Shown piece by piece: positions 382 to 25,659 of a stretch of DNA of 32,361 bases (positions are counted from its first letter, which is position 1; each line of letters starts with the position of its first letter). The DNA is from Actinomycetota bacterium (GTDB lineage: Bacteria; Actinomycetota; Acidimicrobiia; Acidimicrobiales; Ilumatobacteraceae): contig WLGS01000009.1 of NCBI GenBank assembly GCA_009703125.1, forward strand, positions 1-32,361. The letters run 5' to 3'. The translations under genes and the position numbers were made by a program. The notes under the pieces were generated by a model. It was not told where the DNA came from. It was given only the letters and a program-made list of their open reading frames with translations, and made no database searches.

Positions 382-939
382 CTATAAATCATTCATCAGA
401 ATGAGCAACAGTTGTTCGAAATCATCAATCGTTGCGGGAATGTCATCTACATCTTTACCGAGATCATCCCATCGGCGAAGACGAATTGCGTCAGGGCTCT
501 GAGTTCTGGCAAGGAACTCAACGCATTCCTCGGTTGACATTGGCCCACCCTGCAGCACCAGACTTGCAGCTGATCCTGAACTGAGGCTGCGTGCATATTC
601 AACATCGGTGGCACTAAGAAAACGTTTTGCCTCTACATGCCACCGAATCGGCTCAGTTACCTGCTCGCCAAAAAGTACTGATAATGCATTGGCCCCAGAA
701 TCTTGATGGCGAAGATCCATATCAGCGACAACTTGTGTGGATGCACGCGCACGAATCTCTAAAAGATGCCCCACGTCGTGAAGAAGTGCTGCAAGAACAA
801 GAGAGGTAGATGCGCCATCTTCCTGCGCGCGTCGTGCACACTGCACCGCGTGAGTAGTTTGCGAGATCTCCTCGTCATACATATTGTCCCCATATTCCCG
901 GTAAACACTCACAATGTCGCCAACATGTTCAAACAACAT
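382..939 (-). CDS. phnZ: PhnZ-like HD-domain mixed-valent di-iron oxygenase
   Basis: This 185-aa HD-domain protein is last in the operon. Visible metal-ligand pattern: His30, His54-Asp55 (HDVGH), His78, His101 and Asp158. This matches the six-ligand set I recall for PhnZ (His34, His58, Asp59, His80, His104, Asp161). His58, Lys105 and Arg155 fall where PhnZ has the substrate-binding His62, Lys108 and Arg158. Tyr21 with Glu23/Glu24 resembles the Tyr24/Glu27 lid pair, though spacing to the first ligand is about one residue shorter. PhnZ-type enzymes oxidatively cleave the C-P bond of 1-hydroxyphosphonates to a carboxylic acid plus phosphate. Its ATG overlaps the phnY stop (TGATG, 937-941), which implies translational coupling. 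Substrate (2-aminoethyl-, methyl-, trimethylaminoethyl- or another phosphonate) is not decided. A plain HD phosphohydrolase is the main alternative, but the partner gene argues against it. Confidence 0.75.
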   Translation of the reverse strand: MLFEHVGDIVSVYREYGDNMYDEEISQTTHAVQCARRAQEDGASTSLVLAALLHDVGHLLEIRARASTQVVADMDLRHQDSGANALSVLFGEQVTEPIRWHVEAKRFLSATDVEYARSLSSGSAASLVLQGGPMSTEECVEFLARTQSPDAIRLRRWDDLGKDVDDIPATIDDFEQLLLILMNDL

Positions 940-1721
940 CAGACTGGCTTCCCTTCAAAGTCACCAATGAGTGAAACCCGTACGGTGTCACCCGTTGCTG
1001 CCTGCTCACTAAATTCTCGGAGCTTTTGCTCGTAGTACGCGTTACGCAAGTCCCCTTCACTGAGCGCGTTATAGGTGGGATATAGAGCACGGCGATCCCG
1101 ACTTGAGTTGTTAGGACCACTGCGGTGAGGTGTACGCGAATGGAACCAAAGAACCTGGCCGGCCTTGAGTTCTACTGGCTCCCATGTAAATGTGGAGACA
1201 AGTTCAGGAGCAATACAACCCTTATTGTCCATGAGAAGAACTTCTGAATGGCACTGACTCACAACTTCAAGACACCCATTTTCAACAGTTGCATCATCAA
1301 CAGCCACCATGCAAGAGATGTGATTATTCACAAAGGGATATGCCGGAGCATCTTGATGAGGTGAATAACCAGCACCGCCTGCAAGCTTGTAATTGATCTT
1401 CTCTTTATAGAGGACCGCTGTTTCGCCCATCAGTTGCGATGCGATTTCCAAAAGAGCACCTTGGCGCAATAACTGATACATCCCCTCATGAAAAGGTGTG
1501 AAGTTTTCCGTGCGACAAAGGCGCGCACCATGCACTGTCATTTCTTGGTAGTGCAACCAGGTTGATTCATCAACGTTCATTGGCCAATCATGAATCTCGC
1601 TCACCCACTTTTGTACCTCTTGGGCATCAACTGTTGACAACGGATTGGTCAAAAGCCATCCATTTGCGGAGAAGAATGTGATGTCATCAGGTGTGAGAGA
1701 AAATGCAAATGTTGTGCTCAC
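939..1721 (-). CDS. phnY: PhnY-like Fe(II)/2-oxoglutarate-dependent oxygenase (phytanoyl-CoA dioxygenase family)
   Basis: This 260-aa protein belongs to the phytanoyl-CoA dioxygenase (PhyH) fold. The iron triad is visible as His122-x-Asp124 (SPHQDAP) and His199 (RTPHRSGPN), with Arg210/Arg211 positioned to bind 2-oxoglutarate. The run KINYKLAGGAGYSPHQDAP is the usual approach to the HxD motif in PhnY/TmpA-like members. PhnY hydroxylates carbon 1 of a phosphonate, making the substrate that PhnZ cleaves. The frame is open up to a GTG at 1874, but that would run 157 bp into the preceding gene. The GTG at 1721 forms a GTGA stop-start overlap with it (1718-1721), the normal operon arrangement, so I chose it. 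Family membership is clear. The phosphonate role rests on the PhnZ-like gene immediately after and the hydrolase before. Confidence 0.75.
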   Translation of the reverse strand: MSTTFAFSLTPDDITFFSANGWLLTNPLSTVDAQEVQKWVSEIHDWPMNVDESTWLHYQEMTVHGARLCRTENFTPFHEGMYQLLRQGALLEIASQLMGETAVLYKEKINYKLAGGAGYSPHQDAPAYPFVNNHISCMVAVDDATVENGCLEVVSQCHSEVLLMDNKGCIAPELVSTFTWEPVELKAGQVLWFHSRTPHRSGPNNSSRDRRALYPTYNALSEGDLRNAYYEQKLREFSEQAATGDTVRVSLIGDFEGKPV

Positions 1722-3181
1722 GATCGCCACGCTACCTCGATCGGCCAACGCCCCACTCCGCCATCTTCCACCAAGAAACCAGTGAACCCATGACGATTGT
1801 GTTGCATTCTCCAAGCGTGCAACTCTTGAGAGAGCTTCAACACCATGTCCGTATTTGTTTCCTTGGTTTTCCAATGAGGATCTGTTGCAAGGTCAAAACA
1901 CATGCTTGTGCCATCGGCCATCTGTACTAATGCATGTGTATCTGTGCGTAAAGTAACCAACGACATCGCCGTTAACCGTCGATTCCATGAAGCTCCCGGT
2001 GTGGAATCAATGAAAAAGGCACTCCAATCAAATTCCCATGTTGCAGCAGTACGCCAGCGAGCAGGACTCTCACTATTGAGAAAAGGAACCAATGAGTACC
2101 CATCACACTGATGGGGTGTTTCTGCTCCAATCAGTTCACATACCGTGGGCAGTAAATCAATGTTCTCAGTGAACTGTTCGACCTTTGTCCCTTGAGCAGC
2201 CTGTAGTTCTGGATCTCGAATGATGCATGGCACATGAAAAGCTTGGTCCCAATAGCCCATTTTTTCTTTCAGGCCATGATCACCCAGCATCTCGCCATGA
2301 TCAGAGGTCACGATGACAATCGTGTTGTCCCAATCACCACGTTCTTTCAATGCCTCAAAAGCTCTGCCAAGTTGCGCATCAATTTCAGAAATCATTCCAA
2401 AATATTGCGAGCGTAATCGGCGTAGTTTTTCATGTTCGGAAGGCGCTGCAGCCGATTCAATTCCTAAGAGGGCTTGATGAAGAGGATGAATATCTTCTCC
2501 AACTTCAATTGGTTGAGGTAACTCATCACCTACATACATGGTGGAAAAATCACCAGCAGCTGAATACGGAGGATGAGGTCGTAGATAACTGAGATGGGCA
2601 CACCACGGATTTTCTTGGTTTTTGTGCCAATCCAAAAACTCATTCGTCATGAAAGACGACACGCTCAAGTGGGCAGGGCGTTTGTGTTCAGTTGCAAGCA
2701 TAGAAATCACGCCGCGTGATGTATCCACATCAAATGATTCCAACCATGACAGCCATGGCTCATGACCCCGCGTGAGATTGAGAATGCAATCAAAGCCTGG
2801 AAGTACTCCCTCGTATGTCTCGAGTCGTGGATCATCAGGACCAGTGGTAACCCGTGGGTCTACCGATTGATCGGTATATCCGAACAAGGCTGGCTCATAT
2901 CCAGATCGACGCAAGACAAGAGCAAGATTGTCAAATGAATGATCAAGAGGTGTTCCATTAGCGACTACGCGATGGTTCATTTGGTACATCCCGGTGTACA
3001 ACGAAGCGCGCCCTGGTGCACACGGGCTTGCTTGGCTGTAGTGACGAGTGAAGTGCATGCCTTGTTTCGCTAACGATGCAAGTGCGGGTGTCTTAATTGG
3101 CCAAGATTTCTGTTCATCTCCAGAGACAAAACATTCCCCACGAAACTGATCAACTGTGACGAAGAGGATGTTTTTATTCAC
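1718..3181 (-). CDS. Phosphonate monoester hydrolase-like enzyme (alkaline phosphatase superfamily, fGly sulfatase group)
   Basis: This 487-aa alkaline-phosphatase-superfamily hydrolase has the formylglycine signature C-x-P-x-R at Cys54-Arg58 (SPCAPGRASLYTG), an N-terminal metal Asp11 in VTVDQFRGE, and the C-terminal metal motif TSDHGEMLGDHGL. From memory it resembles rhizobial and Burkholderia phosphonate monoester hydrolase (PMH) more than arylsulfatases. Shared features are DQ(W/F)R rather than DD at the first metal site, the stretch GLYxMNHRxVxNxxPLD, TxxDPRxTxxxDPR, YxRPHPP, and GDHxLxxKxGYxDxxFxxP. PMHs hydrolyse phosphonate and phosphate esters and some sulfate esters. The frame extends to an ATG at 3256 inside ppa, but the GTG at 3181 lies 11 bp past the ppa stop with an AGGT element upstream, so it is preferred. 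No signal peptide is seen, so it is probably cytoplasmic. A sulfatase role cannot be excluded. A formylglycine-generating enzyme is needed and is not in the window. Confidence 0.75.
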   Translation of the reverse strand: MNKNILFVTVDQFRGECFVSGDEQKSWPIKTPALASLAKQGMHFTRHYSQASPCAPGRASLYTGMYQMNHRVVANGTPLDHSFDNLALVLRRSGYEPALFGYTDQSVDPRVTTGPDDPRLETYEGVLPGFDCILNLTRGHEPWLSWLESFDVDTSRGVISMLATEHKRPAHLSVSSFMTNEFLDWHKNQENPWCAHLSYLRPHPPYSAAGDFSTMYVGDELPQPIEVGEDIHPLHQALLGIESAAAPSEHEKLRRLRSQYFGMISEIDAQLGRAFEALKERGDWDNTIVIVTSDHGEMLGDHGLKEKMGYWDQAFHVPCIIRDPELQAAQGTKVEQFTENIDLLPTVCELIGAETPHQCDGYSLVPFLNSESPARWRTAATWEFDWSAFFIDSTPGASWNRRLTAMSLVTLRTDTHALVQMADGTSMCFDLATDPHWKTKETNTDMVLKLSQELHAWRMQHNRHGFTGFLVEDGGVGRWPIEVAWRS

Positions 3182-3192
3182 GAAATGTGAAC

Positions 3193-3672
3193 CTAATGCT
3201 TGTATCGCGCGAGAGCTGCCTGAATCTCTTCTTCGGCCGCTTGACGATTGGCCCATCCACCAGTGGTCGATGTCTTGTCTGGCTCGATGAGCTTGTATAC
3301 CTCAAAGAAGTTTCCAATTTCAGCTAGTAGGTGATCTGGCGCATCAGTCAAATCGTTATACGCCGCATAGCGTGCGTCACGCGATGGCACGCAAAGAACT
3401 TTCGCATCAGGTCCCTTTTCGTCTTCCATCCAGAACACGCCAATCGGGCGCGCCCACAGATGGCAGCCGGGAAAGGTTGGCTGTTGCAGCAAAATCAATG
3501 CATCAAGAGGGTCGCCATCTTCGCCGAGAGTGTTTGGGAAAAATCCATAATCCAGCGGGTATTGCGTAGCAGTGAACAAGTTACGGTCAAGCCAAATGTG
3601 ACCGGTTTCGTGATCCATCTCGTACTTATTGCGTGAGCCCTGAGGAATCTCAACAATCATCTCAATTTCCAT
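3193..3672 (-). CDS. ppa: Soluble inorganic pyrophosphatase, family I
   Basis: This 159-aa cytoplasmic enzyme hydrolyses pyrophosphate to two phosphates. The family I signature is exact: GEDGDPLDALIL carries the D-G-D-P-L-D metal-binding core. MIVEIPQGSRNKYE near the N-terminus, YPLDYGFFP and the later KVL-x-VP stretch are standard for bacterial Ppa, and length is normal. The frame continues upstream to 3714, but the ATG at 3672 starts the conserved MEIEMIVEIPQG sequence and has a TAGAGT -10 box 7 nt away, implying a leaderless message. It is the first gene of the four-gene operon with the phosphonate genes. Ppa is usually a lone housekeeping gene, so co-transcription with phosphonate catabolism genes is unusual and may reflect a phosphate-economy theme or simple genome compaction. 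Confidence 0.95.
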   Translation of the reverse strand: MEIEMIVEIPQGSRNKYEMDHETGHIWLDRNLFTATQYPLDYGFFPNTLGEDGDPLDALILLQQPTFPGCHLWARPIGVFWMEDEKGPDAKVLCVPSRDARYAAYNDLTDAPDHLLAEIGNFFEVYKLIEPDKTSTTGGWANRQAAEEEIQAALARYKH

Positions 3673-3679
3673 TGAATTT

Positions 3680-3685
3680 ACTCTA
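3680..3685 (-). promoter_or_regulatory. -10 box (TAGAGT) of the ppa-phosphonate operon
   Basis: Reading the minus strand, TAGAGT is followed by 7 nt (aaattca) and the ppa ATG. This fits TANNNT with transcription starting at or next to the start codon. No convincing -35 is visible 16-18 nt upstream. An AATGGG-N9-CCCATT inverted repeat (3695-3715) lies just upstream, in the 77-bp gap shared with the divergent copper gene. Confidence 0.5.
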
Positions 3686-3749
3686 AAGCCTTGCAATGGG
3701 CTGCAGCGACCCATTCACGTCTTGAGCGAGACCTACACTGCTTTTATCC

Positions 3750-17071: not shown

Positions 17072-17914
17072 ATGCGGATACTTGTAACCAACGATGACGG
17101 AATTGATTCAGTGGGTCTTCATGTCCTTGCTCGTGCGATGCGACCCTTTGGTGAAGTTGTAGTGGCCGCACCCGACCAGGAATACTCAGGCGCCGGTGCA
17201 GCAATTGGTGCACTTCACCTCATCCAGCCCGAAGTACACAAAAGACAGATCGAAGGCATTGACACAGCATGGGCAGTCTCAGGTCCACCTGCGTTGTGTG
17301 TGTTCTTTGCGCGACTTGGCCTCTATGGAGATCCTTTTGATCTTGTGGTGTCGGGAATCAATCCCGGCGCAAATGTCGGTCGTGCTGTGTATCACTCGGG
17401 AACAGTGGGCGCAGCCATAACCGCACGCAATGGTGGCATTAGTGGTATCGCAGTAAGCCAAGCAGTCATCGGTTTTGGCGTGGAAGGTCAAGGATGGGAT
17501 GACGCGGTGAAAGGTCAGAAGTGGCACACAGCTGCCGCTATTGCCGCAACGGTTGTTGATGGATTCATTGCAAACAAGCCAGCAGAGCCCATCGTGCTGA
17601 ATGTGAATGTCCCCAACCTTGAAATTGAAGAGTTAAAAGGTTGGCGTCGCACATCAGTAGGCCACATTGTTCCCCAGGCAATGGCGCGCGCAGAGATGGA
17701 AGCAAAAGAAGGCTACGAAGATTCCTATTACGTGCGCATGACCTATGGCGGTACAACGCAAATGGCACCTCATACCGATGGCGGCGCAGTTGAAAATGGC
17801 GAAGTGTCAGTGACGTATCTCAGCCGCTTTGACGATGTAGCACACCATGGAACTGATGAGATCCACAATGCCCTCACTGGCATTGTTGGCTCTCAGAATA
17901 TGCTCCACTCGTAA
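17072..17914 (+). CDS. surE: 5'/3'-nucleotidase SurE
   Basis: This 280-aa enzyme dephosphorylates nucleoside monophosphates and is linked to stationary-phase survival. The N-terminus MRILVTNDDGIDSVGLHVLA has the metal-binding Asp-Asp of SurE; DQEYSGAG gives the conserved Ser, and VSGINPGANVG the metal Asn, followed by YHSGTVGAA. The C-terminal part supplies the dimer-exchange region. The length is slightly above the usual 250-265. The ATG at 17072 starts exactly at the conserved motif. It precedes an SCO6745-family gene by 35 bp, a gap containing an 8-bp hairpin. Confidence 0.93.
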   Translation: MRILVTNDDGIDSVGLHVLARAMRPFGEVVVAAPDQEYSGAGAAIGALHLIQPEVHKRQIEGIDTAWAVSGPPALCVFFARLGLYGDPFDLVVSGINPGANVGRAVYHSGTVGAAITARNGGISGIAVSQAVIGFGVEGQGWDDAVKGQKWHTAAAIAATVVDGFIANKPAEPIVLNVNVPNLEIEELKGWRRTSVGHIVPQAMARAEMEAKEGYEDSYYVRMTYGGTTQMAPHTDGGAVENGEVSVTYLSRFDDVAHHGTDEIHNALTGIVGSQNMLHS

Positions 17915-23376: not shown

Positions 23377-25659
23377 ATGGGTCTGAATAAGGATTTCCAA
23401 GGCAAAGTTGGCCGTTACATAGAGGACTCTGACTCTTGGTGGCCACCTCTTCAGACACCACGTGAAGACGCACCCAATGTTGTTGTTGTGTTGCTAGATG
23501 ACGTGGGTTACGCCCAGTTCGGTTGCTATGGCTCAGACCTTGATACACCCACATTCGACCGGCTTGCAGCAAAGGGTCTTCGTTACTCCAATTACCACAC
23601 CACAGCGTTATGTTCACCCACTCGCGCATGCTTGCTCACCGGTCGAAATCACCACGCGTCTGGCATGGCATGTGTTGTGGAGTTTGCACAGGGATTCCCT
23701 GGCTACGACGCAAACATTCCACCTGAGAACGGCTTTCTCTCTGAAGTACTGAATATGAATGGCTATGCAACTTTTGCATTAGGCAAATGGCACTTGGCCC
23801 CTGCATACGAAAACAACGATGGTGGTCCACGTACTCATTGGCCGCTAAGTAAGGGATTTGATCGCTTCTACGGATTCCTCGCTGGCGAAACCGACCAATA
23901 TCATCCAGACCTCATTCACGACAATCATCAAGTGGAACCACCAAAGACTCCTGAAGAGGGTTACCACATCACTGAAGATATGACTGATCGCGCCATTCAA
24001 TACATCAAAGATTTGCGTGCGTTCTCACCGGTCAAACCTTTCTTTATGTACTACGCACCTGGAGCATGTCATGCACCTCATCAGGCTCCAAAGAAATACA
24101 TCGATGCCTACAAAGGCAAGTTCGACAAAGGATGGGATGCGTGGCGTGAGGAAGTCTTCGCCCGACAAGTGGACAGTGGCTTATTGCCCGAGGGCACCGA
24201 ATTATCTGAGCGCCCTTCATGGGTTCCTGCATGGGACACACTCAGTGACGATCAACGACGTCTCTACACCCGATTGATGGAAGCCTTCGCAGGTTTTATG
24301 ACCCACACTGACGAACAAGTGGGTCGCCTCTTGCAGTTCATTGATTCATTGGGCGAACTCGATAACACGATTGTTGTCATTATGAGCGACAACGGTGCAT
24401 CTGCCGAAGGTGGCCCCACAGGAAGCCATAACGAAAAGTACTTCTACAACTTTGTGCCAGAAAGTCTCGAGGAGAATCTCAAACACATCGATGACATCGG
24501 AACACAACATTCGAACAACCACTATCCGTGGGGTTGGGCATGGGCGGGTAATACTCCTCTCAAGAGATTTAAACGCGACACTCACGAAGGTGGCGTGTGT
24601 GACCCGATGATTGTGCATTGGCCTGCTGGCCTGGGAACACCTGGACAAACTCGCCGGCAGTATGTGCATGCAATCGACCTCACGCCTACTCTTCTTGAAC
24701 TCATTGGTATCAACATGCCCAATGAAATAAAGGGAGTTACTCAAAGCCCTATTGAGGGAACAAGTTTTGCGTACACCTTTAATGACGCCGCAGCACCACA
24801 GCGACACCACACGCAGTACTACGAAATGATGGGCTCACGTGCGATTTATCATGATGGATGGAAAGCGGTTGTCTACCACCCACCCATGATGTCGAACTAC
24901 GAAGATCGACAAATATCTACACGTTCGTTTGAAGAAGATGTATGGGAGCTGTACCACGTTGCCGAAGATTTCTCAGAGTGCCATGACGTTGCGTCTAAGT
25001 TTCCTGAGAAATTGGAAGAGATGAAGAAACTGTGGTGGCAAGAGGCAGAAAAGAATCAGGTGCTGCCTCTCAATAACACCCCTGGAAGATTCGGCGACAA
25101 GCGCTGGATGAGACAGCGCTATGTGTACCACCACGGCATCGCATCAATCCCCGAGACCACTGCACCTAACTTGCGTAATCGCTCATTCCATATCAATGCA
25201 GAACTCACCATTACCCCAGACGCCGACTGTGACGGCATCATTGTGTGTCATGGTGGCCATGCAGGTGGATACGCCCTCTACATCAAGGGAAGACGCCTTC
25301 ACTACGTGCATAACTTTCTTGGATCCATTGCCACCACAGTGTCTGCAAGTGAAGAACTTCCCGCCGGCGACATTCTTGTGCGTGCGGTCTTTAATGCGAC
25401 AGGTCGTTTCCGCGGTGAGATGAATTTGTATTACGGAGATGTCCCGATGGGTAGTGGCAACATCCCCATTACGACTCCACTCACCTACGGCGTAGATCCG
25501 TTCTCAGTGGGTTACCAACGTATGGGTTCTATTTCATCTGATCTCCCAGGCAAGTTCGAGATGCCCGAAGGAGTTCTCCATCGCGTGATTATCGATGCGA
25601 TTGGTCGTGCGTATCGTGACCCAGAAGGCGAACAACGCGCCGCCTTGGCACGTCAATAG
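23377..25659 (+). CDS. Arylsulfatase (type I, formylglycine-dependent)
   Basis: This 760-aa sulfatase has the active-site signature CSPTR at Cys79-Arg83 (TTALCSPTRACLLTGRNHH), metal Asp41-Asp42 in VLLDDVGYAQFGCYG, GKWHL, and the second metal motif VIMSDNGASAEGG. The C-terminal portion (about 560-755) is a beta-rich extension typical of long AtsA-type arylsulfatases of actinobacteria and marine bacteria. It lacks a signal peptide, so it acts in the cytoplasm. It releases sulfate from organic sulfate esters; aryl or sterol substrates are likely but not proven. The ATG at 23377 has GGGGGA 7 nt upstream. It ends 5 bp from the converging SDR gene. It is far from, and clearly different from, the PMH-like enzyme at 1718-3181. 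A formylglycine-generating enzyme must be encoded elsewhere. Confidence 0.93.
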   Translation: MGLNKDFQGKVGRYIEDSDSWWPPLQTPREDAPNVVVVLLDDVGYAQFGCYGSDLDTPTFDRLAAKGLRYSNYHTTALCSPTRACLLTGRNHHASGMACVVEFAQGFPGYDANIPPENGFLSEVLNMNGYATFALGKWHLAPAYENNDGGPRTHWPLSKGFDRFYGFLAGETDQYHPDLIHDNHQVEPPKTPEEGYHITEDMTDRAIQYIKDLRAFSPVKPFFMYYAPGACHAPHQAPKKYIDAYKGKFDKGWDAWREEVFARQVDSGLLPEGTELSERPSWVPAWDTLSDDQRRLYTRLMEAFAGFMTHTDEQVGRLLQFIDSLGELDNTIVVIMSDNGASAEGGPTGSHNEKYFYNFVPESLEENLKHIDDIGTQHSNNHYPWGWAWAGNTPLKRFKRDTHEGGVCDPMIVHWPAGLGTPGQTRRQYVHAIDLTPTLLELIGINMPNEIKGVTQSPIEGTSFAYTFNDAAAPQRHHTQYYEMMGSRAIYHDGWKAVVYHPPMMSNYEDRQISTRSFEEDVWELYHVAEDFSECHDVASKFPEKLEEMKKLWWQEAEKNQVLPLNNTPGRFGDKRWMRQRYVYHHGIASIPETTAPNLRNRSFHINAELTITPDADCDGIIVCHGGHAGGYALYIKGRRLHYVHNFLGSIATTVSASEELPAGDILVRAVFNATGRFRGEMNLYYGDVPMGSGNIPITTPLTYGVDPFSVGYQRMGSISSDLPGKFEMPEGVLHRVIIDAIGRAYRDPEGEQRAALARQ

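Follow-up and report, generated by a model that had tools for sequence, protein, structure and literature searches.

The window analysed here, a contig of 32,361 bases from a 1.93-Mb draft genome that is 94% complete, encodes an HD-domain protein that is very probably a C-P-cleaving oxygenase of the PhnZ/TmpB family, that is, the second enzyme of an oxidative phosphonate pathway. The gene content and a named relative (L002, a Nanopelagicales MAG) suggest that the host belongs to the Actinomycetota. We base this assignment of class and step on homology that is confined to PhnZ and TmpB, on structural similarity to both at a Z score of ~24, on the retained metal ligands and Tyr, Glu, Lys and Arg residues, and on the coupling to a gene for a PhyH-type hydroxylase. 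The whole reading, which includes the assignment to a pathway of the PhnY*/PhnZ1 type, appears reasonably probable. It is favoured because the PhyH protein is best matched by a methylphosphonate hydroxylase model and because the lid of the HD protein is PhnZ1-like.

Homology and predicted structure of the HD protein

When the PDB was searched with phmmer, the best matches of the HD protein were TmpB (6npa, 2.1e-24) and PhnZ (4mlm, 4n71 and 4n6w, ~1e-22), and no PDB match beyond these two proteins fell below 0.1. A profile built from 21 relatives likewise retrieved TmpB (4e-66) and PhnZ (7e-52), with the next match at 0.04. An AlphaFold model of the protein, built on an alignment of three sequences (pLDDT 87.5), superposes on TmpB with a Z score of 24.4 over 170 residues and on PhnZ with a Z score of 24.3 over 172 residues (rmsd 1.9 for each, 1.9-2.5 overall). 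From there the scores drop steeply, to 11.0 for MIOX and to at most 11 for hydrolases and MIOX taken together. The initial annotation had set the protein apart from ordinary HD phosphohydrolases, and the fold comparison, the profile search and the PhyH partner all bear this out.

In a MAFFT alignment all six metal ligands are present (H30, H54, D55, H78, H101 and D158, equivalent to H34, H58, D59, H80, H104 and D161 of PhnZ). Moreover, H58, K105 and R155 fall on H62, K108 and R158, as had been proposed from the first reading, and Y21 and E23 fall on Y24 and E27. The same six ligands are listed for PhnZ in a review, according to which E27 contacts the amino group of the substrate, H62 contacts its hydroxyl and R158 lies beside D161 (PMC7916636). 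K105 and R155 are invariant among 21 diverse relatives, and the helices in which they are predicted to lie are well modelled and superpose on PhnZ, which is consistent with a position of both residues in the active site, where the initial annotation had put them. The PhnZ counterpart of K105, K108, is presumably a phosphonate contact. H58 is invariant among the same 21 relatives, but a few family members at a greater distance have Q, R or T in its place. On its own it is a weak discriminator, since the HDxGH motif is common among HD proteins. Y21 and E23 are also invariant among the 21 relatives but E24 varies, and thus the relevant lid Glu is E23 and not E24.

Gene neighbourhood

The HD gene is the last of four genes that follow each other on the minus strand in the order pyrophosphatase, sulfatase, PhyH and HD (Table 1). 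Between the end of the pyrophosphatase gene and the start of the sulfatase gene there are 11 nt, and no terminator-like site was found in this gap. The sulfatase and PhyH genes overlap by GTGA, the PhyH and HD genes by TGATG. This spacing suggests that the four genes form one transcript with translational coupling. A scan for sigma-70 promoters returned zero sites, a result that is uninformative for the host organism.

Table 1. Genes of the putative four-gene operon in the window.
Feature	Coordinates	Strand	Remarks
HD-domain mixed-valent-diiron-type oxygenase, PhnZ/PhnZ1-like (putative)	382..939	-	185 aa, ATG start; short lid Y21-x-E23
PhyH-type Fe(II)/2-oxoglutarate hydroxylase, PhnY*-like	939..1721	-	260 aa from GTG 1721; Pfam E 7.5e-25
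Phosphonate-monoester-hydrolase/PehA-like sulfatase	1718..3181	-	487 aa from GTG 3181; CAPGR formylglycine-type motif
Inorganic pyrophosphatase	3193..3714	-	only PF00719 match in genome; start probably ATG near 3672

For the PhyH gene an alternative in-frame GTG start is possible at 1730, and the open reading frame of the sulfatase extends to 3256. The facial triad of the PhyH protein (H122-x-D124 and H199) is conserved in 35 aligned homologues, and the C-x-P-x-R nucleophile motif of the sulfatase (CAPGR) is kept in its aligned homologues. A second, larger sulfatase-like open reading frame with a CSPTR motif is found in the window at 23377-25659, 20 kb from the first. The pyrophosphatase was considered as part of a conserved cassette and rejected, as none is found beside the loci of the relatives. 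A PhnD-type phosphonate-binding protein was not found in the 94%-complete genome, which leaves phosphonate uptake unexplained.

In 34 of the homologous loci sampled, the PhyH and HD genes lie next to each other or are fused, and actinobacterial relatives include two single-frame fusions (L052:7881-9797 and L089:9269-10903). In two congeners (L047 and L048) the pair is located at the end of a C-P lyase operon that contains PhnI and PhnJ and, in L048, also PhnK-like and inositol-phosphatase-like genes. This position ties the PhyH-HD pair to phosphonates.

Further genes were seen near the pair. An Amidohydro_2 metal-dependent amidohydrolase lies beside it, mostly divergently, in about ten congeners (loci L034, L036-L042, L044, L045 and L050). 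A SurE nucleotidase follows it in several congeners, and a SurE homologue (76% identical) is present in the window at 17072-17911. Viral contigs were also considered as a source of broader kin, but those scanned yielded one HD relative locus (L075, encountered a second time as L117) and no PhyH relative.

A short lid shared with PhyH-partnered relatives

The spacing from the lid Tyr to the first His is 9 residues in the window protein (lid Y21-D-E23) and 10 in PhnZ and TmpB, and in this respect the initial annotation was correct. It had, however, treated the changed lid as peculiar to this protein, which we reject. In a survey of 55 aligned rows, a short Y-x-E lid is found in all 34 rows in which a PhyH gene lies beside the HD gene or is fused to it (PhnZ itself not counted), and is thus general among PhyH-partnered relatives; these rows are kin, so that the 34 do not represent as many independent events. 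The Y-x-x-E lid is that of PhnZ, of TmpB and of those homologues that lack PhyH and are TmpA-partnered or C-P-lyase-associated. For PhnZ and TmpB the YxxE lid loop has been described before (PMC8177086), and the window protein does not have this spacing of the PhnZ (R-HAEP) and TmpB subfamilies. Overall, the earlier interpretation is partly supported: the protein fits a PhnZ-family oxygenase, but its lid is not individually altered.

All curated subfamily cut-offs are missed by the proteins of the window, which formally stay below each of them. The HD protein reaches 199.4 bits on the Phn-HD model TIGR03276 (NCBIfam cut-off 214.6), 121.5 bits on the PhnZ1 model NF052439 (cut-off 300) and 121.3 bits on the TmpB model NF049941 (cut-off 300). 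Its PhyH partner scores 272.8 bits on the PhnY* model NF052437, its best family match (cut-off 500), and the sulfatase scores 383 bits on the PehA model NF045661 (cut-off 900). Since the PhnZ1 and TmpB scores are equal, nothing but the lid and the PhyH partner ties the HD protein to PhnZ1.

The lid of PhnZ1 was placed indirectly, by scoring native and lid-altered sequences in three backgrounds on the NCBIfam models. One added lid residue raises the score on TIGR03276 (from 199.4 to 204.4 for the window protein, and from 209.4 to 214.4 and from 213.1 to 218.2 in the other backgrounds) and on the TmpB model (from 121.3 to 128.3 for the window protein, and from 148 to 156 and from 154.6 to 162.8). 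The PhnZ1 score, in contrast, is lowered by ~6 bits (from 121.5 to 115.6 for the window protein, and from 220.3 to 214.4 and from 194.7 to 188.6). Removal of one residue from PhnZ or TmpB has the reverse effect, with small gains on the PhnZ1 model (from 105.0 to 105.7 and from 137.2 to 140.2). These opposite responses indicate that the PhnZ1 model is short-lidded, and PhnZ1 itself, judged from the HMM only, appears to be so too. In all three backgrounds, as judged on the PhnZ1 model, the lid of the window protein is of the PhnZ1 type and not of the PhnZ/TmpB type. Moreover, a Y-D-E lid is also present in L056 (220 bits) and L057 (195 bits), which come nearest to the PhnZ1 model among the genome relatives. 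The short lid may in part cause the sub-cut-off score on TIGR03276.

An HD tree built without the lid columns requires 6 changes of lid type, of which at least 3 are forced by the starred branches. A single origin of the lid type is therefore rejected, and over the family as a whole the lid does not behave as a clean one-step marker. PhnZ groups with L086 (support 99/94) on a branch of its own, apart from the short-lid homologues with a PhyH partner.

The sulfatase and a possible phosphonate-ester route

The operon might also encode a dedicated phosphonate-ester route, in which the sulfatase would free methylphosphonate or a similar compound that the PhyH and HD enzymes then oxidise to a carboxylate and phosphate. 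This is an extension of the preferred explanation and not an exclusive rival to it, and we regard it as tentative. It is consistent with the occurrence of marine methyl- and hydroxyethylphosphonate as polysaccharide esters, from which a PMH has been postulated to release them (PMC5649143, PMC9381506), and with the gene order. A sulfatase gene lies in line upstream of the pair in the window, L032, L033 and L043, the first three of which form one clade of the HD tree (support 100/98; the L043 fragment was left out), and it is divergent beside the pair in L050 as well as in L094 and L095, which belong to another family of the order. In the congener locus L033 (4636-7587) an ArsR-ArsC fusion, an ArsJ-associated GAPDH and an ArsJ arsenic efflux gene are found directly upstream of the sulfatase-PhyH-HD genes on the same strand, so that arsenate and phosphate stress may be co-regulated.

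The wider distribution of the sulfatase argues against the ester route. A homologue is present in 28 of 32 congeners, about 11 of which lack the HD gene, so that the sulfatase is nearly core in the genus, and in seven further congeners it is found on the same contig as the pair but 9-20 kb away from it. Furthermore, neither an FGE (PF03781) nor an anSME (TIGR03942) match was detected in the 32 congener genomes, which are incomplete. The conversion of the sulfatase Cys to formylglycine is thus unexplained, and the Cys may not be converted. Maturation systems for formylglycine other than FGE and anSME exist. A sulfatase of the same superfamily with an unmodified Cys retains weak activity (PMC6189696). 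Finally, inspection of the sulfatase by eye revealed no signal peptide, so that polymer-bound esters would need to be processed elsewhere.

Substrate and proposed mechanism

According to the preferred reading, the PhyH enzyme would hydroxylate a small phosphonate at its alpha carbon to yield a 1-hydroxyphosphonate, possibly after ester hydrolysis by the sulfatase has fed the pathway. The HD enzyme would bind this product on Fe1 through its phosphonate and hydroxyl groups, in the surroundings of H58, K105 and R155. Tyr21 of the lid would leave Fe2 and E23 would close over the substrate. O2 could then bind to Fe2, and cleavage of the C-P bond would produce a carboxylate and phosphate. The likeliest substrate of the HD enzyme is hydroxymethylphosphonate (HMP), which would yield formate and phosphate, or another small 1-hydroxyalkylphosphonate; R-HAEP is also possible.

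The initial annotation had suggested that the lid may change substrate preference. PhnZ1 has been reported to cleave both HMP and R-HAEP, while its partner PhnY* is specific for methylphosphonate (PMC10574752). Thus, the substrate does not follow from the lid alone; that of the pathway is probably set by the hydroxylase.

These activities of PhnZ1 also bear on an alternative in which the PhyH-HD pair is specific for AEP and R-HAEP, like the classical PhnY/PhnZ, with E23 holding the amino group as E27 does. We consider this unlikely, even though E23 occupies the alignment position of E27 without variation among the diverse relatives, AEP is the most common phosphonate in the sea, and R-HAEP is a substrate of the apparently short-lidded PhnZ1 as well (PMC10574752). 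PhnZ, which is proven to be of the AEP type, has the Y-x-x-E lid and branches with L086 apart from the short-lid group. The PhyH protein matches the methylphosphonate model, but an AEP-type hydroxylase model is absent among its NCBIfam matches, so that this match does not discriminate. That the HD protein is instead an ordinary HD phosphohydrolase with incidental PhnZ-like residues is hardly credible. Pfam HD is matched, if weakly, and most HD proteins are hydrolases, but the profile and fold searches clearly set the protein apart from them, and 34 loci show the coupling to a PhyH oxygenase.

Implications

For the use of phosphonates in marine dissolved organic matter (DOM), a phosphatase- or PMH-like activity has been postulated at the ester-bond step (PMC5649143). 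The combination of a putative ester hydrolase and a C-P oxygenase pair in one operon is the most useful novelty of the locus, and it opens the ester step to a direct test with three genes. Such a coupling would describe a sink in which phosphonate carbon ends as formate and not as methane. It is doubtful whether the four genes constitute a complete route, free of methane, that leads from esterified methylphosphonate, a form present in marine DOM, to formate and phosphate, and whether the Y-x-E lid marks a class of alkylphosphonate oxygenases with PhyH partners that is large and under-annotated in Actinomycetota. Estimates of the abundance of PhnZ/TmpB-type versus PhnZ1-type enzymes differ widely between surveys (PMC10574752), and the lid is a simple sequence mark that would help to separate the two types.

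Comparison with known systems

A close parallel to the proposed pathway is PhnZ1/GmPhnZ of Gimesia maris, the hydroxymethylphosphonate dioxygenase behind NF052439. It likewise combines an HD oxygenase with a PhnY*-type partner and, as far as the HMM tells, has the same short lid, but the window protein reaches just 121.5 of the required 300 bits. PhnZ of bacterium HF130_AEPn_1 (4MLM, 4MLN, 4N6W, 4N71) is 38% identical to the window protein over 154 residues and has in common with it the six ligands, the equivalents of H62, K108 and R158, the fold (Z ~24) and an Fe/2OG hydroxylase partner. Its lid (Y-I-G-E), however, is one residue longer and it occupies a separate tree branch. TmpB of Leisingera caerulea (6NPA), to which the window protein is 36% identical over 153 residues, also shares the ligands and the fold, but has a Y-L-G-E lid, and the partners of its close relatives are TauD/TfdA-like, whereas that of the window protein is PhyH. 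The sulfatase resembles PMH/PehA (2VQR, 2W8S, 4UPH, 4UPK), with matches of 3e-106 to 4UPH and 1e-86 to 2VQR and a common CxPxR motif, yet it attains 383 of 900 bits on the PehA model and differs in its adjoining C-P oxygenases. Finally, the fungal PhnY-PhnZ fusion PhoF (PMC10574752) has bacterial counterparts in L052 and L089, in which PhyH and HD are similarly joined in a single frame, whereas in the window the two are encoded by separate, overlapping genes.
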